Positions 3,401-27,973 of a stretch of DNA of 64,000 nt are shown one piece after another. The DNA comes from Diprion similis (taxonomy: Eukaryota; Arthropoda; Insecta; Hymenoptera; Diprionidae), in NCBI RefSeq assembly GCF_021155765.1, contig NC_060110.1, positions 5,704,001 to 5,768,000 on the forward strand, in the 5' to 3' direction. Position 1 is the first letter of the stretch, and each line of letters starts with the position of its first letter. Both the position numbers and the translations under genes were made by a program. Below the pieces are notes generated by a model that saw only the letters and a list, made by a program, of their open reading frames with translations, had not been told where the DNA came from and searched no databases.

Positions 3401-6400
3401 TTAAAATATACTTACACAGCGTAGTTCACTTAACGATTGGGTGTAAAAAAATTAGAAAAACCGAAATTCCGAATGACCAGGGTCCCAAACGTATGAAATC
3501 GAGAATCCAAAACAAAGAAAAACCTAAGTTGTGAAATTTTTTGAACTGAAAATCTTCGATCATTCGGAACTTCGATGTTTCGAATTTTTTAATTTCCACA
3601 TTTTATCCCTTCGGAACTTTGAGCGTCAGGTTTCAGAGCATTCGCAACTTTGCTGTTTCGCCAAAGTTTCATTTCTTTAATTTAAGTTTCCCCACCAAAA
3701 TTTCGGAACTTGTCGGTCTGGGAACTTTTCAAGTTCGAAATTTCAACCCCGCCCCTCCTGTTATTCATGTCTGTTCGGATCACCGTGCGAAAAGCGACTG
3801 GTTTTAAAACTCAGCGGCTGGCTAAACTTTCCGCCTGAAGAGTCGATACCAACGATAAGCTCGGGTACATAATAAACGATAGATACAGGTATAGCTTCAC
3901 TGATCGGTGATGAGCACCTATCGCTCTCCGGCCATAAAACCTTCATCGCTTTCACGAATTCCTATCTTGTCATTTCGCCGAATAATTCGAGCTGCAAAAA
4001 CGGGCCTGTCAGATTCAAAAAGAGACTGAAAAAAAGAACCTAGGAAAATTCAAAGTAATTTAAGCATTGATACCCGTTTAGAAATGTGTTGCACTGCACT
4101 GCAACCGAAGTCTGTCGACGCAGCTATGATACGCGGATAAATTTAAACATTTAAAAAACGCGCAAAGCGAGATTTTATCATAATTTATGAAGTTTCGAAT
4201 TAGTTGCATCAGTTTTTCATGATTTACGTATAATGCTTAGTATTTTGTCAGTGATTTTTTGTCAGGTGAACATCGAAATTGGGAGAATAGACAGAGAGAG
4301 AGAGAGAGAGAGATGCCGACTCCTCAGAGATGACGTGTAAAGTAAACGTAAACGTGCACAGCTTGGATCCAAAGCGGATATCAACGTCAACGCGGCGTTA
4401 ATTTATCGACCCAAAAAATACAGTTTTCCTCATTTTTTTTTTTTGTTTCTCTTTTTTTCTTTTTTCCTTCTTTCATCGATATACTCAGGGTCTTCGATCC
4501 TCGGGGCGCTTCGCGTTGTTCACCCTAATCACGTGCCTATAATACAGTGTTTAGACGGTTGTATTCAAGAATTTGTAATAGAGGATATGTTTGCACCAAT
4601 GCGTCGTGAGCAAGGAATTTTTTTTACGTTTTTGATTTTATTTCACCTGCAGAGATCAAAGAAACGCATGATTAACAGCTAGAATGAGAAGACGAGAATT
4701 TTTTATTTGTTTATCGATTATATTTAGTAGATTATTTTTCCTCTCATCGCACCAAATATTTTCCTCCAAGCCGTCAAGCTTACTCGTATTTTTACTGAGA
4801 ACATTTTGTTCCTGTTTGCTGTTCGAAGGGACGCACGACAAATTAGCTTCAGCCCTACTTCTGTCGAAAATAGAAAAATCTTCTTTCTTCCTTTTGTTCA
4901 AATGCTTCGAAATTCTCGTGCAGGTTGAATTTAGACATCGATAATCCTGAAGGTTTGTACGGCAAAAATGCGTTATAACTTGTCGAACGTAAATCTGAAA
5001 CTGTTACAGAGACCTTTTTAAACACTGAAATAATTTATGTAACATTTGTCTATATAAAATAAATTTCAACGAATGAATGTGTGTTGCGAAGAGCTTTGAT
5101 TAAAAATTACCCGTGTTTCGACTAACAGTTAACTCACCATTATTTATTTTCATCGTTAATCTTATCATTTTTCACGCTTTTATACTCCAAGTAGATACTG
5201 CTGTACTGCAACTCTATTCCGAACTCAGAGCTCATTTCACAAAGAGGCTTGACTTGGATAGTTTCGACTTAGATCACTTTTCAAGATTTTTTCTCCGGAC
5301 AGCGTCAAATTTTTCCAGTTTTTCATTCGATTCATCGAGTAACGAAAACCCTATGCTTCTCAAAGAATTCGGTGTACATTCGCAAATATCTCTTCGCTTT
5401 TCTGAAATATTTAGTTTCCTCGAATTCAGCACTTCTGTCGTGCGACCCTTCAATTGTGCACAGGAAGAAAAACAGGAAGAAAATAAAACTGCATCGCAAT
5501 GTTGCCTTCGTACTCCGATTGGCTTGATGTACGTGACGTAATGCGAGGTCATTCGATCGTTAAAACGCTCACGAATCGACATGAATGACTTTATTTTGCT
5601 CTTCATATTTCGCTCGAATTCTGCGAGTAGCCGAAAGCCAAAAAAATTCTGCCTACCTATTTATCAAATAATATAAAATCTACATATGAGTGTGAATCCG
5701 TTCTAACCTGAAGACAAAAATATTTTTTAGAATCAGAAAATTTGCAAGTGTTTGTAACACATGTGATTCGGATCGCTCTAATTAATCAATAAATGAATTG
5801 AGTAATTTCAATGGCTGATCAAATCGAGCAACGCGATTATCACGTATATTCTCATGTGTATATATTATCTCTGCGCTAATCTATATGCGGTATAAATAAA
5901 AATGGGAATAATCATTGAATAGAAATCATCTGCCCACTGCTATTGCACGGGGCCGACGTCCCTCGCTTCTGATCTAAGATGCGTATTACGAAACTTGAGT
6001 CTTACACGCATAAATACGTATGCGTGTACGCATACGTACGTCACACGTGTATAAATGGGTACGTTTCTACCAGTACCGAATTGGGTTACAGCCGCAGCCG
6101 CAGACAAGACCAGTTCCGAATCACTCTCTTTAAGCCCGCAGGCACGTAGTGGAAAATACTACGGCCTCTATTCTACCCTGAAGTGCAGCGCCGAAAATCC
6201 GTTCCCCCTCATCCCCCCTCTTAATCATAACCAAAGAGTAAACTTAAAAAAAATCGCTCTTTACTATGATTCAATTCGTGGATAAGTTTTATTTGAGAAT
6301 TTTGCAGCGACCGATTTTTTGGTTCACAGTTTTGATTTATCCGCGATTCACAAGAACTGCATTCATTCATTCATTCATTCATTTATGCGGATGCACTGTT

Positions 6401-6518
6401 GGTCACTGTAATTCTATGCAATAGCGTGCAAAACGATCGCGAAATTGAAATATTATAATATTCAATAGCACGTGGTTCGATTATATTGTTGAATGAGCAT
6501 TACTATTACTAGTGTGTG

Positions 6519-6554
<36 letters not shown>

Positions 6555-9500
6555 GGTATTTTACAAATGTTTTGTTACGCTTATTATTATTTAAACTTTC
6601 ACTGTTCATTTGAATTTTGGAATTATTTATAGAACCAACACGCGGGTAACGAATGCTTGAGACTTGATTTTCTTTCTCTATTTCAAGCATCTAAAAATGC
6701 CTGGATCGAATTTTTCGAATCGCGGATCGCGACGCGAACTTTTCACGGGCTACGACCGGCACTGACTGACTTGAGTCGCGGATTGACGGGGGATACTTTC
6801 TGACCAGCTGCCTAGCTCGTACTCTCGAACAACGAGTAACTAACATCGATCGTTGCCTGTAATCGTTTGCTGTCAAGACGAACCCGAAAACGGTTTCTGC
6901 TACCGAAGATAGAAAATCCTTAAATCCCCGGCAAGATCGACGATCGACGAACTCTCGATAATGTGCATAATGCGCGAGATGATCCTCATATCCTTAATGA
7001 CATGTATAGGTAATGCCCTCTGGCCATAGTGCATGCGTAAGCATGATGGATTCAAACACTGTATGCAATATATGTATAAATATATACACCATGCATACCT
7101 ACATGTGCGATAATGTGCATTTAATTACATATTAATTCACGAGATAGTGATACAATTACATTGATAATAATGATAATGACGAAAACAAAAATAGTAAGTA
7201 TGGCGAATCGGAAAGCCGGGATCTATTGATTATTCTACACCGACTACACCCTTTGCTGCAGGCGTTAACGGGCGTCAATCAATCAAATTGTAATACAAAA
7301 ACACATATAGGTGTGTAACTTCTAGATCCCGCTTTCGAATTTTAATTTATTTGATCGATTACAACACGTGTCTAACTCTAGGATACACATTGGTGATTGT
7401 GCAGTTGCTTAGCTCTTGAGAATGTGATATTACCGAACTTGCATATTTGCAATGTGCCGATATCAAATTTCAAACAATTTTCGTGCAGCAGTGACGAGTA
7501 CGAGTAGAACGATAAAACGGAGAGAAAATAGGCTCTTTCTCTCCTTTCGTTTTTGGAGAGAATAATCATGAATTCAGGTTCGTCATTGTTAACAAACGTC
7601 AACTTACCGACGCTGCGAAGTGTCTGTCTCGATGGATCGGTTGACTTTTCAGATATTTGCAACGAGAGCCTCGGACAATAGTCTTCAGTGTTTTTGAACC
7701 TTTCCGAGAGATCTGCAAGAATCGTATTACACGAGGCTGAAGTTAGTAACGTTAACGCAACGAAACATTGGTAGGAAAAATTACAATTTTTGCAAGTTTT
7801 CAGTAACTTCGAAGTAGCTAACTTTTCAAAATATCAATACATTTTGCCTGATTATAATTTACCGAATTTCAGGCATTCCTGCAATTTTTAATAACGATTT
7901 TCCGAAACATTAATCATTACAACAACGTTACCAACTTCAGCCTCTTCATATTATAACCTCTGTACAAATTTAAATCGTGTTACAACGCTTAAACTGTTAA
8001 ATTCAATCAAAAAAAAACATGCCAAAAAAACGATGAAAAGAAAAAAGAAAGAAAAAAAAACACCACATCGTGTGTGTGCGTTCAATATAAGTTTTGCGTG
8101 GGAATTAGTTACGTAACTTATGCGTCTACGTATGCAATACACACACGTATTTTTATATACCTATACGTATGTACACTTGCAACGCACACATATACACGTG
8201 TATGTATAAAGTTACTCGTGGAGTGGAGGAGATCGTTTAATGACTTTTACGGGGTAAAGCTCGCAATAAACCAGGGCAAACTCTGCAGATAAATGGCGCA
8301 TGATGTGCAAAAATATTTTTATATCTACAACAAATTTGCCAAATCGAAGACAAATTGCGTGTGTGTGTGTGTGTGTGTGTGCGTATTCTGTTATTTGAAA
8401 AAAAAAAAAAAAAACATCAATACCGTTTTTCCGTAATTATATTATATAAGTGTAAAATATATTCATGTCGCAACGCCGCCGTTTATTATCATTGTTTAAT
8501 TTTCAAAGCCTGTGCTGATAATCGAATTCGAAGGAAACTCAAGTGTTAAATTTGAAATAAAATTGAAGCGTGCATGTCCGTTCATACGCGATGGATAAAA
8601 AAAAAAAGGGACGATTAGAAGACGATTTGTTTACGAGTTATTTTGCAAACAAATCGTGTAATGACTCGATCGGGTGTCCGTAAGTGTGACTATATATTTA
8701 TAGCCACCGAGCCTAATTATCACTTCTGAATTCCTCCGGAGAATTTAAGCGCACGTCGCGGCCTGGCATAAGTCCTACGTATGTAAGATCGTATAGAACG
8801 GCACCGAGGGGACTGGGTCAAGGGGAATCAGACTCACCTATCACGGTCCCCTTTCTATATAAGATGTGAATAACGAGTAAAACGTGCGGGTGAGAAAAAA
8901 ATCTCACGACTTGCCGCCATGCCTTTTCCCTTCTAGCTATATGTTGTGTTATACCTTGTATATATGCACAGACAGAGGAACGATATTTTGTTGAATGTGT
9001 ACGGAGTGATTACCTACTGCACGTCGACCGTCCCTCCCATCCTCGACACTACACAGATCGTTATCTAAAATTTTTCGCCATTTACTCGTCGGCACGTCAT
9101 TATCATAGGAGGTAGGATACTTTTTAAAACGAGCAGTCTTTACTTGGATATTTTATGATCATGCTCTTTCAACTCACAGATTTTATTCTCAATGTATAGA
9201 ATATGAAGTGATTTATATTGAAATAAAAAGAAACTAGTGAAAGTTTCTCGTTCACTAATCGTACCTATGATAAGCCAACATTTAGAAGTTTTACAACATT
9301 AAAAAGTCAAAAGATATTAAGAAGACGATGATTTAGAAACTTTGTCAAAAGATGCGATATTCCGCACGTTCGACATGATAAAACCTGAACTTGAAAATTC
9401 ACGCTTTCCAAACACCGGCCAATCGGCGATCACCTTTGGCAAAGAGTGAGAAAATTTTAAACGTTACAAAAAAATTAACAGCGATTGGTGGAACTTGACG

Positions 9501-11011: not shown

Positions 11012-12516
11012 TCAGGAGCCTTCTTTCCTCGTGGTAATGGCCAGGTAGCAGAATGAACCCTGATGCGGTACCGGCTGAGCTGCTAGAAACGCGCCACCAT
11101 CCGGGGACATTTTCATCACCATAGGACCGTCGCCTGAGTTTTCCTCCAGTGAGGCAATTATCTCATCCGCATTCTCCGTGTTGTCGATTCTGCCAGGCTA
11201 ACCGAGATTCGTTCGTTAGGAGAAACCAGTGTGTGCAAGCTTTGGGAAAAAGTTCTTCGAAAAAAGTAGCAGAACTGAGTTGATGGGTCAAAATGAGTTT
11301 CGAAATATCTCAACTTTTTTATCGTTTCACGTATGACAATATACATGGTTGTCTTTTTTAATCACCCCGGGCGAATGTCTTTGGAACCGGAAAAGATACG
11401 AGAAAAGTTTGATACAAAACTTGAAGGGTTTCGAGGGGGACAGATAATGCTGATATGCGTTGATTTGTGCTGATTTTTCGAGTTCTCATATTTTGACTAT
11501 GAACGGCTGATAACGGGTTTGAAGATGAATTCAAAACGTAAAGAAATATATTTAATTGTACAAAATTGTTACAAGTGTTTCCCGATTTTCAGCAAGTGAA
11601 GTACTCATCCACTTTCCAACGAAGTGAAACATTGCAATCCCCATGGGTTGAAAAAACTAGAAATCGTGTTTCCACGTGATCAAGCGTTTCCCGTAGACCC
11701 TTAAGCGCAAAAAAGTGATGAATTTTTGAAGATTAATGCCTTGCCTCAGGAAAAATGGCCGAGTATTTTACTTTCTGAAAATTCTTAAAATTCTTGCATG
11801 ATATTGAAAAATTGAATGTTTTTTACGTCTGTGAATTTGTCTTCAAACCCGCTATTAGCTGTTCATAGTCAAAATATGTGTTCTTTGTGTGAAATCACGA
11901 AGTATTCGAAAAATCTGAAAACTGAAGCAATTCACAAATCAACCCATATCATTATTAGTTTAACCGCCCGAAATCCATCAGGTTTTATGTAAAACTTTTT
12001 CCTGCATCTCTTCTACAGCTTTCGAGATATTCGCCTGAGGCGATTAAATAAGACCACCCTTTATATACCGATTGTTTGTTCTTCGCAGGTCCAACGAGAT
12101 GCGGTTTTCATTCATTCGTAACTAAGCAAGATGACTGAACGATCAATTGTATAATATTATTACTGACAACTAGACCGGCGATGTCAACGATGCTATTTGC
12201 GGTTGGCGGTTCCTCGTCGAAGGGGGGTCTGAGCACGCCTTCCTGAAGATGGAGAACCAGATAATACATGAAGTCGTTCCTCAGCTGCATTTCTTGGATC
12301 GACTTATTCGCCGACATAAGGTAACGGAGCCACTTCATGACGCGACGACGATCTTGGATATCAAAGCGGTCAAGAAAAAGCGTTTTACGATATCTCTGTG
12401 AGAAGCTAGGCTTTCTTACCCTGCATATGTCTCATGTCAGCGATTAGTCTTTTAGCTAGGAACAGGTTATAGTTACAGTCGTAGTTCAAGCTGGCTTTTT
12501 CCTCTTCCTGCTCCAT
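11012..12516 (-). CDS. Small DUF4485-like protein, 155 aa, head-to-head with CEP78
   Basis: Exons on the minus strand are 12516-12420, 12352-12168 and 11197-11012. Phases join exactly (97+185+186 = 468 nt, stop TGA at 11012-11014). Residues 10-80 (LNYDCNYNLFLAKRL, then DRRRVMKWLRYLMS and LVLHLQEGVLRPPF) resemble the DUF4485 module at the N-terminus of the centrosomal protein CEP112, which has the same pattern of a DRQR-W-RKL helix, a leucine-rich helix and a closing G-x-L-x-x-PF. The tail ends with a hydrophobic GGAFLAAQPVPHQGSFCYLA stretch. There is no signal peptide or membrane segment. The donor after exon 2 is gtcagt, which is weak, and the last acceptor could be 11190 in another phase. 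The start faces CEP78 across 348 bp, so the promoter is probably shared. The second intron contains a MITE. A centrosomal role is inference. Confidence 0.7.
11345..12062. mobile_element. MITE of about 715 bp with long imperfect inverted repeats
   Basis: The left arm (11347-11545) and the reversed right arm (11825-12060) align over about 200 bases. Examples are GGTTGTCTTTTTTAATC against GGTGGTCTTATTTAATC, and TATTTTGACTATGAACGGCT against TATTTTGACTATGAACAGCT, followed by a shared CGGGTTTGAAGA. A TA lies a few bases outside each end. It sits wholly inside the second intron of the DUF4485-like gene. No open frame for a transposase is present. Confidence 0.75.
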
Positions 12517-12864
12517 TGCGTGTGAAAAATATATGACAACTATACTCGGTACTAAAGGGGGGGGGGAGAACGGTAACAGTGTTAAACATAAAATGAATAA
12601 AAATAAATAAAAAAAATTGTATAGGTACAGTTAAAGAAAGGATGTTAAATGAAACAAATTGGGACGATAAACAGTCATCTGCAACTGACGTCTGAAACGA
12701 TGCGCTGTGTTCAAGCTGTAGATGAGATTACAAACATTTGTCAAGTGTTTCTCCGTATGCTCAGATTATCATTTTATACTCAAGGAAACGTGTGATTTAT
12801 ACAGGATTTTTTTTTTAATCTTAAATTACTTCTATTTATTTTTTAATAAACCAAGAATAGAAAA
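12517..12864. promoter_or_regulatory. Bidirectional promoter interval, DUF4485-like gene / CEP78
   Basis: These 348 bp separate two divergent start codons. The interval holds a G run (about 12558-12566) and an A-rich block near 12600-12620. I see no TATA box with convincing spacing and no clear X-box. Both genes must start transcription within it unless 5'UTR introns exist. Confidence 0.55.
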
Positions 12865-15328
12865 ATGAGTAAGTCAGTTTCCTGCCCGTCTTTCAATCGA
12901 ACGTACCAGGTAAGATGTTTGATATCGTAATTATCTTTATTCAAAATTACTGCCATTCACTTCATCAAGGGGGTTAGCTTAACCCAAGAAATTTCTCCGC
13001 GTTTCATACTCGTGATATTTTTTACGTTCAGCTGATGTGCAGAGAGAGTAACATTCAGCCGCTACCAGCGATAAAATCGCACCTACATAAGGGACGGCTG
13101 CGATTATGTACAGACCGGATAAATCTCGAAGACTGGTCACCAGTATTACGTAGCATCGCGAATGATCGAAGTCTGTCCGAAATAATCGCTTACAGTCGCC
13201 ACAGGCGTAAGAAAATTAGAGAACGAATAAACACCGAGGAAAAGGTGGAAAACTTCCGGTAATCGGGGAGTCTTAATTAATCACAGAACCACACCGTCGT
13301 GGAAGCTTGATCATTTCATTCTATATCCCTAATCTACTAATCATCCCTTAAACAATTTGTACAGACGACGGCTTCGCAGCACAGAACCGGTTCTCTACAC
13401 AAATTTCATCCTCCGTTGTTTTGTCGATGCAATTTCAACCTGCGCTGGGAAATCGCTGGTGATTACCTCGCTGACACTGGACGGCATCCCTTTGCCCATA
13501 AAATATTTGGGCCCTCTCTGCGAAGGCTTGAAATGCGCTAAGAATCTTACAGCCCTTCGACTACCCCGATGCCGCATCGGAGATACTGGTAATAAACCAT
13601 TTCAATAAAAACTTGGGAATATAGGAAAACCATTAAAAAATGTCTAAGAGTGTTTCTTGTGCAAATGATGGCGAACACAAATGAAACGACATCCCGACTA
13701 CGTAATGGAAATTAAAAACGTTGGAAACTAACCGAAAATACCAAAGTTTATTAATCTTAAAAGTTCTAATTATGAAACCTTTTCTCAAATTATTGATATT
13801 TCAGCATTATCTATTACATAATTAGGATATTCTTTCATCCGTGTTTACCATCATTGGCACAATTAATACTGCTAGACATTTTTTGACGGTGCTTTCTTTT
13901 TTTTTCAAATTTTTTATTGAGGCGTTGGAGCCCAATAATCTTCAAGCACGTGAATATTCTTGTCAGTAATCATCTTGTTACTTTTTTACCCCAATGGAAA
14001 GGGTGCGACTTAGTCCTGAACGTACTGGTGGACTGTGTTAGTCTGTGCATCCTAGACTTGTCGTCATGCCGCCTGACCATCCGTAGCTCAATGTCGCTGT
14101 CGACATTTTTAAAGAAGAGGAGAACAATCCTGCTTCACAGCACGTGGAGTGATGCGCAGGCTGTGCAGGTATAACAAAAAATCTGATTTCGAATATTGCC
14201 CCTTGTTCATTAGATCTCTTAAATGATTGGAAAGGGTTTTCACACCCTGGTGCTGAACCACAACCGTAAACTAGGCGACTGTGGCGTTCGACTGCTAGTT
14301 GACGATCTAAAGGAAGATTTTTGGATGAAGACTTTCAACGTACGACATTGCGGACTTACTTCGAGAGGAGGTGAAGCTGTCGTTAGACTCCTAGAGACGA
14401 ACAGTGTACTAACGTCTATCGATCTCAAGGAAAACGATATTCCGGAATCAATTATCCACAATGTGTCAAAGATTTTACGCAGAAGAAAGGAGAACGGTGA
14501 ACGGGCATCGATGAGGAAGAGGCTGATCACTGGGAAAGAGAGGAACTTTCAAGAGGGTAAAAACGATCGAAAGAGACCGACGACGAGGATGACGGATTTT
14601 CTTTTGAACAAGAAATCGCACTTCGTCCGTACCCTGAACAGTAATCCTAAGAAGAAACAACGATCCTGGACCCGGTTATTCGTCAAGGTTATATCTCTCA
14701 TTATGTAACTAAATTTATTAAAAAACAAGTCAACCTTCATGCCTAATAATACTTGTCGATATATAATCAATTTACACTCTCATTTACATACTGAAAGAGC
14801 TCGACGAGGCGGATTCCTAGATGGAAGGCCACGCATCCGAGGTTTCGTAGACCGAAGAATTCGGAGAACGAGAATTTGGATTTGAAGAAGCTATCGGCGC
14901 GACTGTCTAGGACGATTGGCAGCAACGCGGTTCTTCTTCGAGAGCTGATAAACGACCGAGAACTTTTGGCGGAGATGAAAACACGTCGACTAGAAGCGGA
15001 AAAAAAGTTTTCCGACCTTGAGCCGCAGCTTGAAGATCTACGGAACAGTATTTGCGAGCAGGATAAGCTTCGTTACAGAATTTCCCAAGAACGGAAGCTC
15101 TTCGACTATCTGAAGAGGCTCTTTGCACGGTTAGAGGAATTTCCTGAATCAGTAGCGATTGTTTCTAATCCTGAAGATAAATCGACGGTAACTGAAGAGA
15201 TCCTCGGCGACAATACTGCCTGGAAAATCATTTCCGAAGTCGACCTCTCACCCGAAGGAAAAAATCCCCGAGCAAACTATTCCTCGCAACGCAGTCGACC
15301 CCATTGTCCAAGAAAATTTCGAGGGTAA
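12865..15328 (+). CDS. Cep78: Centrosomal protein CEP78, leucine-rich repeats plus coiled coil
   Basis: Exons are 12865-12909, 13032-13258, 13365-13588, 14002-14168, 14235-14687 and 14798-15328, totalling 1647 nt and 548 aa (human CEP78 is about 690-720 aa). The N-terminus matches the family (SFNRTYQ, then a DRINLEDWSPVL block equivalent to the human DRVRLVDWPPIL). Leucine-rich repeats cover roughly residues 80-310: LTLDGIPLPIKYLGPL, LTALRLPRCRIGDTG, LCILDLSSCRL, GFHTLVLNHNRKLGD and LTSIDLKENDIPESI. A basic stretch follows, with an IPRWKATHPRFRRP motif at the place of the vertebrate LPWRTAERAKRHRG. The C-terminal coiled coil spans about residues 400-460. CEP78 is a distal centriole protein acting in ciliogenesis and centriole control. 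Exon 5 may instead end at 14674 with exon 6 starting at 14800; both choices keep the frame. A poly(A) signal AATAAA lies at 15402-15407. Confidence 0.88.
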
Positions 15329-15401
15329 TAAGAATTTAAAAGCGTGTAACTGGTCGTCAGAGTATATTCATGTCTGGTACAATTCTCAATTGACAACAAA
15401 A

Positions 15402-15407
15402 AATAAA
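15402..15407 (+). terminator. Poly(A) signal for CEP78
   Basis: A canonical AATAAA hexamer lies 74 nt past the CEP78 stop codon and before the CCDC112 promoter elements. Confidence 0.5.
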
Positions 15408-15546
15408 ATAAAGAAATTGTCCCTCTTACTCTACACTTTTTCCGTCTCGTTAAAGTGGGGCGCACATCGTGCGCGTAAATATCGATTGAACTTTCCAACA
15501 AACGACGATTGGGCCTAACAATGAATTCTCCCACCTGTTGCCACTC

Positions 15547-15560
15547 GTTGTCATAGAGAT
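15547..15560 (+). promoter_or_regulatory. Near-consensus RFX X-box upstream of CCDC112
   Basis: GTTGTC-AT-AGAGAT fits the X-box pattern RYYNYY-N(1-3)-RRNRAC except for the last base (T for C). It lies 102 bp before the CCDC112 ATG, which is the distance range typical of X-boxes in ciliary genes. A DRE-like TATCGAT is nearby at 15480-15486. Confidence 0.45.
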
Positions 15561-15661
15561 ACGTTTGTTTTCAATTGCATGGCCGGGTTGGCAGTAGCTC
15601 GGCAATAGAAGAATATACATCTGTGTTCCGCGACTGTATCTGAACTCTGAACATTGCAATT

Positions 15662-17486
15662 ATGGATAAGAACTGCATCCTGAGTACAGAAAGGTGTGAC
15701 AAGAAGTCGTCGCAAGTCAGGGGGGAACCGAATATTGGAAACAGAGTTTCTATGTTGACCAAAAAAACTGAGTGCTTAAGGGAATATCGAAGGCTGAAGC
15801 TGCAGGAGGATTTTTTGGAAAAGGATCTTGCGTCTACGATAAAACGTATGAAAATTGACACTGATATGATCCATGAAATAACTGAGAACCGGATAAAAAC
15901 CCTCGATGAAAGGTAAGAGTCCCGGTATCAAATATTTATCTTCTTCAATTTGCTCGCCAAACATTCATTTTCGCACGTTCATCCAGACAGCCAAGCTTGC
16001 AGAGACTGGAGTGCACGACCCTCGGTATTCTGAATGAGTTAAAATCGGTGAAATTGATGCTTCAGCAAACTGATCCTTCGGCGATTCGAAATCTAGGTGA
16101 GTGTTCGAAGTACAATAAACCTATCCAAAACGAATCCACACTATTAAACATACCGTTACACCTGTAATTTTAGATGTAAGCGATTTCCGTTTGAGGCTAA
16201 TGAGACTATCAAATCAGATCGAGGTCTTAAAAGGAGTAGAACAAAGTCTCGCCAAACTCGGCGAAGAAGAATCAATGCTCGATTCCGATCAACGAGCATT
16301 CGACAGAATAATTTTTGCCGGAAACACGAACGGAGCTCCGAAACAAAGCGGAGAACGGAAGTGCCAGACTCGTTCCGGGGTCAACGATCGGTTCATTGAG
16401 CTTGTTGCTCGCACCGGTCACACACAGGGATGGTCCGAAGATGATCATTCCGTGTTCCTCAAGGTAAGGAGGAAATGCGAATCGGTTCCGAACCTTGTAA
16501 CTGAAATGCGTACGCGACGAGTTCACCTCACAAACGAGCAAGTTATAAACCACGAGGCGTGGTACAAGCTGTACACCGAATTGCGATTGAAACGGAAGAA
16601 GGACATCGCCGAGTGGCGATCAAGGCGACAAGACCTCAAACCTAAGGCGAACGGAGAAACTGAGAGAAAAGAATCTTCGTCTTTTCCTTACGGCTGTGCC
16701 CCTATGGACGAAAAAGAATCCATTCCTCGATGCAGGAAACTTGATACGAGAGCGAGTATCGCAGAAAAGAAGCAGAAGATCGAGGCATGGAGGGCAGAGA
16801 GATCGAGGAAGGCTGCGATGGACGATGAGCAGAAGAAACGTTTAGAGATTGAAAAGGCTGAGAAGGAAAGAAGGCGACGACAGGCTCTGCGAAACGAAGC
16901 TAAGACTAAACTTCAAGAGTTCAATGGCCGAGAAATAGCGAGAAAATCGAGATCAGATCCGAACTTGCAGAGAAATGAAAGTCGAACATATGTGAGGTCG
17001 GATTCACTGAAATTGTTAAAGTCCTTCAGGTATATATATATATATATATGTTGCCACTTGTTCATTTCATTTTAGTGAGAAACAGTCGATACAACAGTTA
17101 CCTATATTAGATTTGCCGCTATAATTCACGTAAATTTCTAATTCAGAGAACAGGATGAAAAATTCATACGAAAAAGGCTTAGCTATCTGAAGGCTTCGAA
17201 AAAAAGTACCGCTAATCCTGTAGCTACTGATTCAAGGCCTTTAAAGTCAAGTGTCTCCTCGATGGCGACATTATTTTTACCAACGAAAGTCTGGGAGCAA
17301 AGATGCAAACTGGAACAGAAGACGGATGAATCCTTTGGCAAAATCAATTACATCAAAGATATCCAAAAGTTGTTAGTACGGATCAATACTAGTGAGATTT
17401 GTTCCTTTTCTTTTGTTCCAAATTTAATTTTATCCTTTTTTTCAGAGGTCCTCCACGATGAAAATGCTACCGATGACTTATTGTAA
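15662..17486 (+). CDS. Ccdc112: Coiled-coil domain-containing protein 112
   Basis: Exons are 15662-15912, 15987-16096, 16174-17029, 17147-17391 and 17446-17486, totalling 1503 nt and 500 aa (human isoforms about 446-529 aa). The diagnostic motif HTQGWSEDDHSVFLKVRRKC (exon 3) corresponds to the family's GWSxEDHxxFLKV block. Long alpha-helical coiled coils surround it, followed by a Lys/Arg/Glu-rich helix (KKQKIEAWRAERSRKAAMDD). There is no membrane segment. The near-C-terminal LPTKVWEQRCK resembles the conserved P-x-W tail motifs of the family. CCDC112 is a centriolar satellite component in vertebrates. It follows CEP78 on the same strand after 334 bp with its own promoter signals. The last intron is only 54 nt, a multiple of three and stop-free, so a retained form of 518 aa is possible. 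AATAAA lies at 17791-17796. Confidence 0.87.
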
Positions 17487-20438: not shown

Positions 20439-23400
20439 TCACACTAGAAAATCAGGGTCACTATAGTCCTCAGCACTTTCGCTACTGTCTGAAATTCTTC
20501 TCCTTTTTTTCTTCTTGTGCTTTTTAACCTTTTCCGTTTTATGGGTACGATGCTGTTTCCTGTGCTCCTTGTTTTCGCTGTGGGGGTGTATGGTTAGTTT
20601 AGGTACACGTGGGGTGGTTGCCGCAGCTGGTGGAGCTGCGGGGATTGAAGTAACAGAGTTAACCTGGACCGCAGGATTACTCGTGTTAATCTGATTCACA
20701 TTTAGCTGTCTGTTCATAGAGTGAGTGGGTGTGGCGTGAATGTCCGCAACACCTGGTAATCTACCGGTAGCAGCAGTTGGATCAACTTGATTGGCTTTTT
20801 GTAAAGCGTCAGGGTTTCCCCCCTCCTCATCGGGTTCCTCAGGATCAAACTTGAGCATCAATTGCTTGAAGTCAAGGTATTCTTTTATCAACTTTTTTTT
20901 ACCACTTTCGTCCAGTTCATCGTTATTTGTACCATCTTTCAGTTTCTGTAGCGTTGCTTTAGGCCGGAAGTGGAGGTTATTTTTTCTACTGACAGCTTTT
21001 TCGTAGACCTTTGCAGATTCTGAAGGTGAATACTGTCCAATTTTAGCATCCGTGAAACCATAAAGATCTTTGAGGTGCTGCCTCAGAGTGAGCAGCAATA
21101 AAAAACCTTGACTAGCCGTTATGTACTCCCTGAGTAATGTCGTGTCTTCCGGTAACCTTGCCATTATCGTTTCCTCATCTTCTTCGTCATCCTCTTCATC
21201 CTCAATATTCGGTAAAACTGGAATTGCCAGTGGTTCTCCATCAGGGCCAAATTTCATAAGCGAGGGATGCTCCTGATGTTGCTGCTCCTGTGTTTGCTGG
21301 GGATGAATCTCTTTAGGCAACAGCGCCTCTTTGAAAGACTGCAGGAGATTTGTGCCGGACATTGAAATGATGATGTCGATATTGTGAATGATAAACAATG
21401 GCTCATCTTGAACCTGGTAAGTGAAGTAGGACAAATTGTCTGCCAGATAAAGCATTTGGGACAAGCTCGTTTTAGCACTTTCGTCAAACTGCTTAAGGAA
21501 AGAGAGAACAATCGCCCTCCGTTGCTGCTTGGTATTCCTAAGTATGGTGTACAAAAAACCATTGAGCGCAGATGGAAATTCCCCCTCCTTTATCCTCATC
21601 CCTCTAACGGTCTCGTCGTTTTGCAGTATCTTCTGAAGCCGGTAGCTCAGCCTGATTCCAAACTGTGACTTCATATGTATGAAGCCTGGGTATTTCTTCT
21701 CTATGTCTTGAAGTTGTTTGTCAGCACTGTGACTTACCATCTTCTCGCAATCCGTACTCATGCAAATTAGGTACGGAACTATTTGTACAGGATGTACGAG
21801 ACCCTGGGCCAATATCAGTTGAATTACTTTCAGAGCAGCGTGCCGCACAGATACATTTATATGAAGGAAAGATTCCAGTATCTCTTTTAGGTACAACTGG
21901 ATTACTGTACTCGCCATACCTGACGAAACGTCACCCATTTCCTTGAGGTTCTCTTGCTTGGACAGCTTAGCCCATTCCTGATCCTGTTTTATCATTCGCT
22001 TTTCTTCCTCCTGCAGATATACTTCAATATTGTTGAGGACCTGTGACCGCATGTTGATGGGTGCATTTTCGGAAGTGAGTAGATGGTGGTAAAGTTCCTT
22101 GAGCTCGGGTGTCATCATGAATTCGTAGTGCCTGATGCACAACGAGCCGATGGCCGAAAGTGTGAAAAACCGTATGTCGTCGTTGTCCTGATGCACAAAG
22201 TAGCTCAGCGTCTCAAAAACCTGGTCCTTTATATTCTCTGGTAGTCCCTCTGTTACTTCCTTATCAGTGAAGTTAAAATGCCTGAGCAAAAGTCCGACAG
22301 TGAACAATGCGCGTCTAAAAAATGGCCTGTTCTTCTGTAGAATTGGATTGGCACGATTTTTCTCATACAACGACTTGTAGTCGGTCAAATGTCCATAATA
22401 TTTCTTGAAGCAATCGCGTATCAGCTTGAAGTTCCTGGTTACATTGTTTACTATAGATCCCAGGCAAGAAAGGCAACTTGCAACGACAGACTTATCATGG
22501 AGAAGAATCAGTTTGACAGAATCCTCTTCAAGCTGAGCCAGAAACGTTTCGCTGGGATGTTCCATCAGTGGAACGACAAGCTCCAATGTGTGAGCGACAC
22601 TGCTTATTATCTGATAGTCACCCTGGGTCTGGCATTTTAAACTGAGATAGGGCTGTAATGTTATAGCATGGTTGACGAGAAGCTGTGGTCTTATTTTTGC
22701 AAACAAATATAGGGTAGTTAGACAGGCTACTAGCCTTTGCGATGAGCCCTTCTTCTCAATTTTCTCAGCATCGTCAAGGCCCGTTTCTTCAAGTCTTAAT
22801 ACATTCTCGATAAGACAATCAACGATCTGCTTGCAGGCAGTCAGCAGCGCCTTGGGCGGCTCAGTCATTGTCTTTGTGCTGTCCTCTTTGTCCTCTTTAG
22901 GCTTGAACAGACTCACCAGGAGCTGCTCAAACCACTCGAGTCCCATGTCCTTGCTAGCAGTAACGACGTCTGTGATGTTCATCACCTTTCTCAGCAGTGC
23001 CTCGGAATCTACGATGGGTCGTTCCTTGACAGGAGTGAACCACATGTTCTGAAACACTTCCATGACCAATTTTCTTATTCCCTCTTCGTCGTTAACCCTT
23101 CTGATCATCTTGACGCATATTTCCGGTATTTTGGGAAAATTCGGGCACTCCATACATATATCCTTGAGTATCTTGATGACACGCTTTCGCACGCTGACCC
23201 CAGTGTCAAGAATTCGCGTGGAGAGCATATCATAGTATTTGTCAATCAGCTCTGGCCTACTTAGGACAAATTTACCAACGAGATCGACAGCTGCTTCACG
23301 AACAGACGTCGATAGGTCAAAAAACGAGTGTTTTACACCAAGCTGCATGTCAACTCTGGCCAATACACTCGAGTCAGCCTCGACAATCATTGTAAGGCAT

Positions 23401-26400
23401 TTCATCGCCTTGGTGCGAATGGCGATAGAGGATTCAGTCAGAACGTGAAGTATCTGCTTGAGATAGCGATCAAAACTTTGTGAGAAGGGCCGCTTCGATG
23501 CAAGGTACTGTGATATCAATTCTGCAGACTTATAGTCGATATAAGTCTGTAGTATATCACTTTTAGCGGTGGAATGACTGTATGGTCGTATCTTATTTAT
23601 AATTAATTTCTTTTTCAGTTCAATGAGCCGATATGACTCTGAGTTTTTCTGTTCATTGTTGTCATTCTCATCTGCATCACACTCGTTCTCATCCGATTCA
23701 CTTTCCTCGTCGCTGCTGAGATGCCTATTTTTCTTTCTTGACTTTTTCTTCTGCATCTTTTTTGTTGGCGTATTTTTTATCTGGCCAACACGAGATTTTT
23801 CAACTACCGTATCTCTGTACCATTGAGCTAGGTAAAAGTGCCTTGCATATCCCAGAGCAGCGTCGTTCGTTCCATTCACTGCAAGATAGTCGATCAGCAC
23901 TCTTTGCAGAAATATCGTTCTTTCTTCGTCTTCACTGATCCCAACAATGTCCTTATCCTTGGTCACCTCGTAGTCAGTGTCTTTCTGCTGTTCAGTCTTT
24001 ATGTCTTTTACTATCTGATCAATCGTTGACAGTTTACAGTGCGAGTTTACAGCATCCCTGCGCAGTCTGGCAGCCACAACACCAAGGTATTCGATTGATG
24101 CTATCCTGAGCGACATGTCAGATCCTTTATTGGAAAAATGGCTGACAAGCAAATTTCCCAGAAGACTAAGGAGCAGTTCAGCGGCAGGCCATTCAGGTTT
24201 GTTAACAGTCGCCAGCAGATCCTGTACAAAGTTTTCGAACAACGGTCTGTAGTCAATTTCTTCGCCTTTGCTTCCACATTTGTTGAGGAACACGTTCAAA
24301 AAATTTCCAGCTGTTCTCGTTGCAGTTTCGTACTTATTGAGTATGAGAACGTCAATGTCAACCTGGTGGGATTTCTTTTCTTTTTCTTCACTCTTTTCAT
24401 CGTCATCTCTCGCCTGTTTATCACGTGGCATTAAACTCTCTGGTAGAACTACGACACATTGAATTAGCTGAAGAACCAAAGCAGTAAGCATTTGTATATA
24501 ATCTTCAGAGTTCAGTCGGTAAGTCCTAAGACTTCTTTTACTGCTTGGCAGGCGTGCTATTGAGGCCAAAATATCGTCAAGTAGCAATCGCCTGTGTTTC
24601 TCATACTTCGTGAAAATAACTGTCACAAGTTTCAGGGCACTCAGCTGTAGCTCACTCACAGATTCGACAAAGAATGGAGCAACACCCAGGGTAGAGGCAT
24701 GTAGCACACTTGTGTCGGTCAAAACCTGGATGCTGAGGAGTTCGGCGAGAAGACCGACAAGTACGTGCATTTTATTATAAACTCCAAGGATACTTTTTTC
24801 CCTTACTTCTTTAGTATGGGCTCGTTTTTTTCTACCACTAGCATTAAAGTTTTCTGTTTTGTTTTTAGAGTCTATTCTATAGACAGGGTCAAACGAAGGA
24901 TAAATTGTGTTCTGTAGCTGAAATTTCATAAACAAAACAATTCTGTCTATAACATCCTCAAGGTAAACGTGCTTAGACATATTCTGTGACGTCATGATGT
25001 AGAGAGCGGTAAGTGACGCATCAACTGCGCGCTGTACCCTCTCCATAGCGAGTTCCATCCAGAGGCGACTCTCATCTATGTCATCATCTGGATCAGCAAG
25101 TGGCGAGACTCTAGCGCCGTCGCGGATGTTCTTCTCCAATATGTTGAGAAGTCTGACCAAGCGGTCAGGTGGGATGGACTCCATAGCCCCAAGACCTTTG
25201 AGCTTGGCAGCTTCGCTGCATAAATCGTGAAGTTGATATTTAGATATGAGCATTTCAGGGGCTACGTCGCCGTCATCGTCAAGGTCAGCTGTTGCTGCAG
25301 CATCTTCGGTGTTCTCAAATATCGCGTCGATAGTTCTGTTGAATCTCTGATACGTGTTAGTGTCCATAAGCTCCTCAACGCTGAGTTTATGCAGTACTGG
25401 AACTAATTTTCTTTCTACTTTCCTGATTTTAGGTTTCGTTGGCGAGTTTGGTTCTTCGTCCTCTCTGTAATCGTCATCATCATCTACTATTCTTCTGCGT
25501 CTTCTTTGGGACTTGTCCTCCCCCTTTTTTCGCTCTGCTCTTTCTTTTTCTTTCTGAACCTGTCTCTCCCTGGCTCGTGCCTTGAAGTGCTTGTTGTTCC
25601 TGCCTATTTCCTCTTCGCTTTCCGAATCACTCTTCACTTCGTTGTTGCCTCCCATAATGCCCATTTTTGCTGCAAGGTTCGGAGATTTCTCTGCAAAAGC
25701 GCTGAGGCTCTTCTGCATCAGAGCTTGATCGGCCAGTGACAATCTTTTTAACATAACAATAGGCTCTTTCATTTTTTCCACTGGCGTGGCTGCCAGTGGC
25801 AATGTTGCTTGGCCCACTTCGCTCTTGGTAAGGTTATTATTTTGAATGTTCGAAGGGTTTAGCGTTCTGTGTGGTGAGCTGTAAGTTTCGTTTGCTTCAT
25901 TTATTGTCGGGTTAGGATTGGTGTGAACTGGGAGTTGCTGCAAATTATGAATGACATCCCGGACTGGCATTTGTACAGGATTCCGCCTCTCGTCCAAATC
26001 GTGCGATATGGGTAATTGGACATCCGGAAGGCCAGTGACTGGATCCAGAATAAACTGTTGATTATCCTGAACACTGTTATTGACATTATCAATTTGGTGG
26101 GATTCTAAGGGACGGGTTAGCTGCTGATTTAGTACAGGATCGTAAATATTTTGTTGCACGTTCATACTATGATGATGTGAAGGGATTCCAGTGTGCATTG
26201 GCGAAGTACCATGTATATTGTGCTGAGGCGTAAGACCACCAACGTGATGCTGAGGTGTGATGTTGCCCAGAGACGTAATTGCGCTATTAGGTGAGCTGAG
26301 GTGAGCCGGGGAGTAAATATTTTGCTGCGGGTTCATCTGGGATATTGGATTCACACAGTTGACGTCTTCCTGCATATGTTGTGGCGTCGTCGATGCCCTG

Positions 26401-27074
26401 GTTTGTTCTGTGATGACTGTGGCTCTCGGAGAAGGTGAGGGAACGGCGAATGGTGACATTTGTGAAAGATCGGCGTGGTTCTGCGGCGCAATACTCATCC
26501 GAGGATGCTGTGGCTGGGCCACCGCTCCTGGCGGTGGCAAGACGATGCGTGCAGCAGCCGGATGAGCAGGACTGCCCTGAGGAGTGTGGCGCGACCCTGA
26601 TGGGCTCGAATAAGATGGTGAAAACTGTCCGTAACTGGCTGGTGACTGATTGGGGTGCATCAGCGAAGTATTCTGGGTTGTCCAGTTGCGCGGAGAGTTG
26701 TACTGCGGCCCTTTAAACACGTGGGGATTTATCTGAAGTATCGCTTTCAGCAATTCCGGTGTATTTTGCTGGGGATCTATGAGCTGCTCGGTGTTGGCGT
26801 AGTGGTCCTTGAGCTCAATGTGGTCCGAGGATGTCTGCGAGAGAGAGAGAATTAACTGAGGCACTAGGTTCTCGTCCCTTGCACTAAGAAGTATCTGGGC
26901 CTCCTGCGCCACGCGTGGATGAAACAAAAGCGATTTATTTGTCAGAGTCTGCGGTAGCGGCGTTGGCAAAGGCATTTCTGGTAACAAGTCAGTCAGACTT
27001 GCTATGCCCGCAAGGGTAGTTATCGGTACGCTCGGTATAACCCCATTCATTTTGGCTAGGATTTGTTCTGGCAT
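20439..27074 (-). CDS. Nipped-B: Nipped-B / NIPBL cohesin loader, single 6.6-kb exon
   Basis: One uninterrupted frame of 2211 codons. The N-terminus carries the conserved MAU2(SCC4)-binding segment, PSVPITTLAGIASLTDLLPE, nearly identical to human NIPBL. Human NIPBL begins MNG, so the second ATG at 27050 (MNGVIPS) is the likelier start, giving 2203 aa. Residues about 130-440 are Gln/Pro/His-rich and disordered. A basic RRRRRIVDDDDD patch lies near 523 and LSVEELMDTNTYQRF near 563. The HEAT-repeat hook runs roughly 1170-1850 and begins with SDILQTYIDYKSAELISQYL. An acidic run is at about 1950 and a Lys/Arg-rich tail (KKHKKKKRRR) near 2186. With MAU2 the protein loads cohesin onto chromatin and affects enhancer-promoter contact. 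Vertebrate NIPBL has dozens of exons, so the intronless frame is unusual. The protein is complete with no frame break, which argues against a dead retrocopy. Confidence 0.97.
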   Translation of the reverse strand: MPEQILAKMNGVIPSVPITTLAGIASLTDLLPEMPLPTPLPQTLTNKSLLFHPRVAQEAQILLSARDENLVPQLILSLSQTSSDHIELKDHYANTEQLIDPQQNTPELLKAILQINPHVFKGPQYNSPRNWTTQNTSLMHPNQSPASYGQFSPSYSSPSGSRHTPQGSPAHPAAARIVLPPPGAVAQPQHPRMSIAPQNHADLSQMSPFAVPSPSPRATVITEQTRASTTPQHMQEDVNCVNPISQMNPQQNIYSPAHLSSPNSAITSLGNITPQHHVGGLTPQHNIHGTSPMHTGIPSHHHSMNVQQNIYDPVLNQQLTRPLESHQIDNVNNSVQDNQQFILDPVTGLPDVQLPISHDLDERRNPVQMPVRDVIHNLQQLPVHTNPNPTINEANETYSSPHRTLNPSNIQNNNLTKSEVGQATLPLAATPVEKMKEPIVMLKRLSLADQALMQKSLSAFAEKSPNLAAKMGIMGGNNEVKSDSESEEEIGRNNKHFKARARERQVQKEKERAERKKGEDKSQRRRRRIVDDDDDYREDEEPNSPTKPKIRKVERKLVPVLHKLSVEELMDTNTYQRFNRTIDAIFENTEDAAATADLDDDGDVAPEMLISKYQLHDLCSEAAKLKGLGAMESIPPDRLVRLLNILEKNIRDGARVSPLADPDDDIDESRLWMELAMERVQRAVDASLTALYIMTSQNMSKHVYLEDVIDRIVLFMKFQLQNTIYPSFDPVYRIDSKNKTENFNASGRKKRAHTKEVREKSILGVYNKMHVLVGLLAELLSIQVLTDTSVLHASTLGVAPFFVESVSELQLSALKLVTVIFTKYEKHRRLLLDDILASIARLPSSKRSLRTYRLNSEDYIQMLTALVLQLIQCVVVLPESLMPRDKQARDDDEKSEEKEKKSHQVDIDVLILNKYETATRTAGNFLNVFLNKCGSKGEEIDYRPLFENFVQDLLATVNKPEWPAAELLLSLLGNLLVSHFSNKGSDMSLRIASIEYLGVVAARLRRDAVNSHCKLSTIDQIVKDIKTEQQKDTDYEVTKDKDIVGISEDEERTIFLQRVLIDYLAVNGTNDAALGYARHFYLAQWYRDTVVEKSRVGQIKNTPTKKMQKKKSRKKNRHLSSDEESESDENECDADENDNNEQKNSESYRLIELKKKLIINKIRPYSHSTAKSDILQTYIDYKSAELISQYLASKRPFSQSFDRYLKQILHVLTESSIAIRTKAMKCLTMIVEADSSVLARVDMQLGVKHSFFDLSTSVREAAVDLVGKFVLSRPELIDKYYDMLSTRILDTGVSVRKRVIKILKDICMECPNFPKIPEICVKMIRRVNDEEGIRKLVMEVFQNMWFTPVKERPIVDSEALLRKVMNITDVVTASKDMGLEWFEQLLVSLFKPKEDKEDSTKTMTEPPKALLTACKQIVDCLIENVLRLEETGLDDAEKIEKKGSSQRLVACLTTLYLFAKIRPQLLVNHAITLQPYLSLKCQTQGDYQIISSVAHTLELVVPLMEHPSETFLAQLEEDSVKLILLHDKSVVASCLSCLGSIVNNVTRNFKLIRDCFKKYYGHLTDYKSLYEKNRANPILQKNRPFFRRALFTVGLLLRHFNFTDKEVTEGLPENIKDQVFETLSYFVHQDNDDIRFFTLSAIGSLCIRHYEFMMTPELKELYHHLLTSENAPINMRSQVLNNIEVYLQEEEKRMIKQDQEWAKLSKQENLKEMGDVSSGMASTVIQLYLKEILESFLHINVSVRHAALKVIQLILAQGLVHPVQIVPYLICMSTDCEKMVSHSADKQLQDIEKKYPGFIHMKSQFGIRLSYRLQKILQNDETVRGMRIKEGEFPSALNGFLYTILRNTKQQRRAIVLSFLKQFDESAKTSLSQMLYLADNLSYFTYQVQDEPLFIIHNIDIIISMSGTNLLQSFKEALLPKEIHPQQTQEQQHQEHPSLMKFGPDGEPLAIPVLPNIEDEEDDEEDEETIMARLPEDTTLLREYITASQGFLLLLTLRQHLKDLYGFTDAKIGQYSPSESAKVYEKAVSRKNNLHFRPKATLQKLKDGTNNDELDESGKKKLIKEYLDFKQLMLKFDPEEPDEEGGNPDALQKANQVDPTAATGRLPGVADIHATPTHSMNRQLNVNQINTSNPAVQVNSVTSIPAAPPAAATTPRVPKLTIHPHSENKEHRKQHRTHKTEKVKKHKKKKRRRISDSSESAEDYSDPDFLV

Positions 27075-27973
27075 TACAGCCCTGACGGTAATTTTTTTTC
27101 TCTGTTATTTTTTGTTCGTTTTTGCTTCCACCCCAATATCAATTATTCCAAATCCTCTGAATAGCTCACCTCAGAGATGGATCGCGTTAAAACTAAACGA
27201 TTCTCGGCTCTGCTATATCCGCGTCTCTGCCGTTTCGATACTGTAGATGCAGCACCGGAATACCAACTTTCGACGGAGCACTATATACAAGCGCACTATC
27301 AATCAATATTATCTTTGAGTCTTCAAACTTTCTACCAAGCTTGGGAACCCAACAAAGTCTCTCTAAGTTCCCATTGCTGCTGTCACTAAGAAGTCAGCCA
27401 AATTTAGATGACGCTCTAGGGTCCTGCAACAGTCGATTCATGTTTGAAGTGTGGCCCGTTACTACCTGCAACAATTTAATGTAAATTAAATTTACATTTT
27501 TTGCTGAACAACGTAGATAATTATTAATTAACGTGCGAGTTGATGTTCATTGTAATGTGACAGAGAAATGATTAATTTATCATTTTACCGTTGTCGTAAT
27601 TTTGCAGGGCACCGAAGTTATGATCTTGAAATAATTGGAAAATCTGAAATGTGTAAAAAAAGAACTACATAATTGAAATCGAAAACAAGAAAAGAAACAT
27701 GCAAAATAAATAATACCAAGTAAAAAATAATTTTGGTCAACTAAATGAATGAACTGTGATATAAATAAACAATAACTATAGACGATGGTATCAGCGCATA
27801 CAAATATGTGCATTAAATCAAGAAGAGTCATCAAGTTATCGCAGTAACTGGTTGAGAGCAGTAGGTGATAACATTGCATAACAAACATGGTTAAAAATGA
27901 TCGAAGATGCTGTGGTATTTGCACCAATTTCTGTTGTTATTTGTAATATTGCACAAGAATTAACGTGAAATAA

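Follow-up and report, generated by a model that had tools for sequence, protein, structure and literature searches.

We analyzed a 64,000-nucleotide stretch of the Diprion similis genome (contig NC_060110.1, positions 5,704,001 to 5,768,000; hereafter the window) around positions 11012–17486, where a first-pass annotation had placed three tightly packed genes of centrosome or cilium type: a small gene with a DUF4485-like domain, CEP78 and CCDC112. When both strands are read, three spliced gene models with open frames are found across this interval, showing that the packing is real (Table 1). The DUF4485 gene and CEP78 are head-to-head, CEP78 and CCDC112 are in tandem, and each of the nine introns in the two plus-strand genes has GT-AG boundaries. 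The length of 348 bp given earlier for the divergent gap is exact, while the tandem gap measures 333 bp rather than 334 bp. The three identities are also upheld, by Pfam for the first gene and, for the other two, by comparison with partial human reference sequences. The three-gene cluster is real, was correctly read, and is mostly ordinary.

Table 1. Genes, exons, introns and gaps between positions 11012 and 17486 of the window.
Feature	Positions	Strand	Description
DUF4485 gene	11012-12516	-	3 exons (12516-12420, 12352-12168, 11197-11012); 155 aa
DUF4485 gene, exon 1	12420-12516	-	start codon; paralogue at C6:25.256 Mb has matching stretch YDCNYNLF
DUF4485 gene, intron 1	12353-12419	-	67 nt, GT-AG
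DUF4485 gene, exon 2	12168-12352	-	most of DUF4485 domain
DUF4485 gene, intron 2 (inferred)	11198-12167	-	donor GTCAGT, acceptor TTAG
DUF4485 gene, exon 3	11012-11197	-	PDG module and stop codon; open frame
Divergent region between DUF4485 gene and CEP78 start codons	12517-12864		348 bp, head-to-head; candidate shared promoter
CEP78 gene	12865-15328	+	6 exons, 548 aa, 5 GT-AG introns
CEP78 exons	12865-12909, 13032-13258, 13365-13588, 14002-14168, 14235-14687, 14798-15328	+	
CEP78 stop to CCDC112 start gap	15329-15661		333 bp
CCDC112 gene	15662-17486	+	5 exons, 500 aa, 4 GT-AG introns
CCDC112 exons	15662-15912, 15987-16096, 16174-17029, 17147-17391, 17446-17486	+	

The spliced 155-aa protein matches the Pfam family PF14846 (DUF4485) with 63.1 bits (E 2.4e-17, profile positions 1–74 of 83), which is well over the curated cut-off of 24 bits and bears out the earlier assignment; DUF4485 is the sole family over its cut-off in a Pfam scan of this protein. 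The score also helps to place the first intron. A 24-nt intron 1 was tried and rejected: it leaves extra residues in and reaches only 52 bits. Removing 67 nt instead lifts the score from 52 to 63 bits and carries the match to profile position 1, and because of this higher score we favour the 67-nt intron. The weakest point of the model is intron 2, which has a weak donor and was picked by frame among several. Its choice fits the closest relative of the gene, a paralogue of the same layout at C6:25.256 Mb (53% identity over 92 residues, E 9e-39), whose first-exon stretch and third exon both match and whose proline-glycine exon start falls at the same point. The matching exon layout of this 53%-identical paralogue supports the gene model, whose stop codon is a TGA at 11014-11012. 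It is highly improbable that the gene is instead decaying, or its model wrongly joined, so that no working gene is present: dispersed repeats in intron 2, the weak second donor picked among several and the very existence of a close paralogue would all suit such a reading, but the three exons are all open, the DUF4485 domain is nearly complete, and the module in exon 3 is common to six other loci and is recovered when the window copy is left out.

The inferred intron 2 holds two opposite-strand copies of a dispersed repeat, at about 11339-11700 and 11752-12066. When exon 3 and part of intron 2 are used as a query, the genome gives 55 matches including the query itself, nearly all of them to the intron part, and several of the matches form opposed pairs. 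An AlphaFold single-sequence model of the 155-aa protein has a mean pLDDT of 50.9, too poor for a fold search; helices are predicted in this low-confidence model at residues 2-28, 34-44, 51-67, 84-91 and 101-113. A sequence search of the PDB gave a single chance match (E 1.3).

The DUF4485 gene has about eight further family members in this genome. A genome search with the DUF4485 profile returns 14 places at E ≤ 10, nine of which are over the curated cut-off, at nine separate loci; the window gene, scored on exon 2 alone, is sixth among the matches. At the C11 locus the matched stretch contains a stop, and the C4 locus only just passes the cut-off, with 27.1 bits. None of 14 control genomes yielded the family. 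We read 10 kb around each of the eight other loci, and further flanks at seven of them. At seven of the nine loci a second conserved C-terminal stretch, the PDG module (consensus spDGcayvAvreiPnkGlycYlAis), lies 3' of the domain on the same strand; profile searches found none at L018 and L020. A profile built from four copies found three copies that were not seeds (L021 at 8e-12, L024 at 4e-8 and L023 at 3e-4). When a later profile made from six copies was run against 9,511 open reading frames in 284 kb, the seven PDG copies were the seven best matches (six of them seeds), and the next match has an E of 1.3. Leaving out one seed at a time, the window copy is recovered at E 2.5e-12, L021 at 2.7e-11, L019 at 2.6e-9 and L024 at 6.8e-8, with L017 and L022 recovered weakly, at 0.009 and 0.035; the L023 copy, never a seed of this profile, is found at 1.2e-4. 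With both the domain and the same-strand downstream module present, the window gene belongs to a DUF4485-PDG subgroup. On these comparisons the DUF4485-PDG family, with a module outside the Pfam model, is the strongest new content of the analysis. In the literature searched, DUF4485 is almost absent, being named once in each of two papers, and among the matches listed for DUF4485 with CEP112 and insects, none names DUF4485.

The domain had been linked to centrosomal CEP112, and part of this link stands: the N-terminus of human CEP112 matches DUF4485 at E 3.7e-26, and thus, like the window protein at 2.4e-17, it carries the domain at its N-terminus. The part that does not stand is the application to this gene, one of nine loci, since DUF4485 is no marker of CEP112 in this genome. 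Unlike CEP112, where DUF4485 is joined to a long coiled coil, the window protein ends after 155 aa with the PDG module in its place. As a pointer to CEP112 function, the domain finds no support, given the nine loci over the cut-off and the different C-terminal module. The CEP112-like member of this genome is L018, at C3:8.276 Mb, where DUF4485 is followed by coiled-coil-like exons (the coiled coil being judged by eye), and because it lies elsewhere, the window gene is not this insect's CEP112. With about nine family members in the genome, the position in the window also tells little about the job of the small protein. The L018 gene, at 4737-8025 of its locus (G000:C3:8275736-8279024), shares its strand with IFT140 and lies upstream of it, no other gene being recognised in between, making this the second adjacency of a DUF4485 gene and a cilium gene in the genome; IFT140 was identified by two beta-propeller families (4e-66 and 1.5e-9) together with TPR families. 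Variants of human CEP112 have been tied to sperm defects (PMC13300789).

Compared with part of human CEP78, the 548-aa protein has 27% identity over 318 columns (E 1e-35), sharing an N-terminal block and the leucine-rich repeat (LRR) region, where LRR_6 is over its Pfam cut-off. The insect protein, with 548 aa, is shorter than the human one, for which PMC8354638 gives 722 aa, and relative to the human reference sequence it is without eight residues near the intron 4 site. A PDB sequence search gave ten matches up to E 0.1, mostly LRR proteins, with axonemal DRC5 as the best (3.7e-7) and one row labelled tubulin. For the 500-aa protein the match to part of human CCDC112 is 32% identity over 81 columns at E 9e-12, with a local score of 218 compared with at most 99 in 300 shuffles; low-complexity masking drops it to E 0.038. 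The two proteins have in common a conserved block of 81 residues together with a PTKxWExR motif in the C-terminal part. A genome search gives four matches at E ≤ 0.001, all to exons of the window gene itself, and the PDB sequence search gave no match. The gene is likely the exact orthologue of CCDC112, to which CCDC148 is related.

The description of CEP78 and CCDC112 as established centriole proteins agrees with the mammalian literature, in which both, and CEP112 as well, are published centriole or sperm proteins. At the tip of the centriole, CEP78 acts together with the EDD1-DYRK2-DDB1-VPRBP ligase, CEP350 and Nek1, and reports disagree as to whether the loss of CP110 is promoted or blocked by it (PMC8354638; PMC13402741). 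Depletion of CEP78 in planarians impairs ciliogenesis (PMC4799839). Among the papers listed for CEP78, no title or abstract opening dealt with insect gene order.

The cluster had also been taken to suggest co-regulation, for which the two gaps give no common regulatory motif beyond background, by an X-box test of little power. We searched for a degenerate X-box (RYYNYY N1-3 RRNRAC) and four stricter forms. The degenerate form occurs 83 times in the 64-kb window, and the 348-bp divergent gap contains neither it nor any stricter form; the best X-box-like site of this gap ranks 170th in the window by an ad hoc weighted score. The 333-bp gap has one loose site, at 15547, compared with about 0.4 expected, and no stricter form. 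Absent in one gap and near background in the other, the X-box was rejected as proof of co-regulation. The test has little power because IFT140, which we take to be an expected positive, has only four loose matches upstream for the three forms tried. The presence of an X-box in one species alone is also not predictive of RFX control (PMC2375033).

Words of 7 to 10 bases common to both gaps show no excess over random pairs of non-coding window segments: specifically, four 9-mers are shared, where random pairs average 8.6. Word sharing was likewise set aside as a sign of co-regulation, being at an ordinary level. Two AATAAA signals, at 15402 and 15407, start 74 and 79 bp past the CEP78 stop, and for this reason separate transcripts of CEP78 and CCDC112 fit the locus. 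The divergent gap also has a run of ten G on the plus strand, at 12557-12566.

The chance of finding such a cluster can be estimated from Drosophila numbers, assuming independent placement and Drosophila gene counts, in a calculation set up after the fact. With a broad list of 815 cilium or basal-body genes among 14,500 (PMC2375033), one expects 2.57 runs of three adjacent cilium genes in a genome, and 46 pairs. Two of the nine DUF4485 loci, the window and L018, adjoin a recognised cilium or centriole gene, and the probability of at least two is 0.26 for the same list. The two of nine is a lower bound because neighbours at two loci are unnamed and at others named in part. Specifically, the named nearest neighbours at five other loci are non-ciliary: BLTP1 at L017, a nearby RGS-domain gene taken for Axin at L019, a transporter-like gene below Pfam cut-offs some 13 kb away at L020, a nearby glutaredoxin at L022 and an RRM gene at L024, with none named at L021 and L023.

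We consider the most plausible reading, with a probability of roughly 0.6, to be that three separate genes lie in a compact neighbourhood of the ordinary kind, their order being more likely due to chance than to selection for a functional cluster. CEP78 and CCDC112 would be the insect counterparts of two centriole or basal-body proteins, each probably served by a promoter and a poly-A signal of its own. The product of the third gene is a small protein from the expanded DUF4485-PDG family, in which a helical DUF4485 domain precedes a short, conserved segment at the C-terminus. The short divergent promoter region would be common to the DUF4485 gene and CEP78, and may give some joint expression via common open chromatin; selection on the gene order would be absent. 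In favour of this reading are the gene models and the Pfam match, the nine DUF4485 loci with the PDG module at seven, the close paralogue, the location of the CEP112-like member beside IFT140, the 2.57 triplets expected with the broad list, the AATAAA signals, the lack of an X-box in the divergent gap and the ordinary level of word sharing.

Several results weigh against this reading. A strict list, which takes 260 genes from the table behind the broad one (PMC2375033), expects only 0.08 three-gene runs and 4.7 pairs per genome, and therefore whether the cluster goes beyond chance depends on the list. The strict list also gives 0.039 for at least two of the nine DUF4485 loci beside cilium or centriole genes, and the probability that a given pair is flanked by one of the nine DUF4485 genes is 0.0012, if the domain had been named beforehand. 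In the gaps themselves, the loose X-box-like site, which precedes the start of CCDC112 by 115 bp, is 27th in the window by the ad hoc score, and a 9-mer resembling half an X-box, TATGACAAC, is present in both gaps, at 12532 and reversed at 15547, with three occurrences in the whole window.

A rival reading is a selected centriole or sperm cluster. Here the DUF4485 gene and CEP78 would be driven together from the divergent promoter, with CCDC112 next in one shared open domain, and the small protein would act alongside CEP78 at the centriole or the flagellum base. The start codons 348 bp apart, the small strict-list odds, the second DUF4485 gene adjoining IFT140 and the ties of mammalian CEP78, CCDC112 and CEP112 to sperm function all point in this direction. 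We still find the selected cluster unlikely: the gaps share no regulatory motif beyond background, the window protein is not CEP112-like and belongs to a broad family, and five of the seven other DUF4485 loci that are not CEP112-like have non-ciliary named neighbours, the remaining two having no named ones. Drosophila clusters, moreover, are not kept in order: PMC3129673 reports no evidence of conserved gene order for co-expression clusters, which are not kept as synteny blocks, and finds that pairs with short gaps or in divergent orientation rearrange more. Breaking up testis neighbourhoods in Drosophila can leave expression unaffected (PMC2994658).

Two further observations concern the surroundings of the other family members. 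The DUF4485-PDG gene at L017 (4618-7008), with more open exons after it, and BLTP1 are on opposite strands; because BLTP1 was recognised by Pfam on the right side and by eye on the left, the DUF4485-PDG gene may sit inside an intron of BLTP1. A cytochrome-b5-domain gene (L035, 4931-5458) that resembles the ciliary gene CYB5D1 lies about 9 kb away from L024, and other reading frames separate the two.

Elsewhere in the window, the earlier statement that all other genes have unrelated functions can be followed in part: among seven other open reading frames scanned, MPP10 and a PAS protein can be named and five have nothing over the cut-off. The minus strand has an uninterrupted reading frame of 2221 codons at 20439-27104, both ends of which look complete and which we take to be the cohesin loader Nipped-B/NIPBL; its only genome match at E ≤ 0.001 is itself. 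The vertebrate and fly Nipped-B/NIPBL genes have many introns, and the intronless frame has the look of a gene that lost its introns wholesale or was replaced by a retrocopy. A further open frame on the minus strand, at 4656-5003, has a sub-threshold match to IFTAP (14.5 bits versus a cut-off of 29.3, E 0.035), which is probably due to chance.

For the small protein itself, the neighbours and one distant relative make a centriolar role possible, at less than even odds. Because of that relative, CEP112, and the neighbours alone, we would also guess, just as tentatively, that it is an adaptor binding a coiled-coil partner in ciliated or sperm cells. A wider proposal, more doubtful than the selected cluster, is that DUF4485-PDG proteins are undescribed, lineage-expanded small adaptors of insect cilia or sperm flagella: different members would bind different centriole or axoneme partners via the DUF4485 helices, and some DUF4485 genes would adjoin core cilium genes (CEP78 and CCDC112 here, and the CEP112-like gene beside IFT140) and share promoters with them.

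Nine DUF4485 loci in one insect genome, seven of them with the PDG module, are a concrete family for testing these ideas. If it is true that DUF4485-PDG members act at centrioles or sperm tails, they would form a small adaptor family beside CEP112; if they do not, the family would be a warning against naming insect DUF4485 proteins after CEP112.

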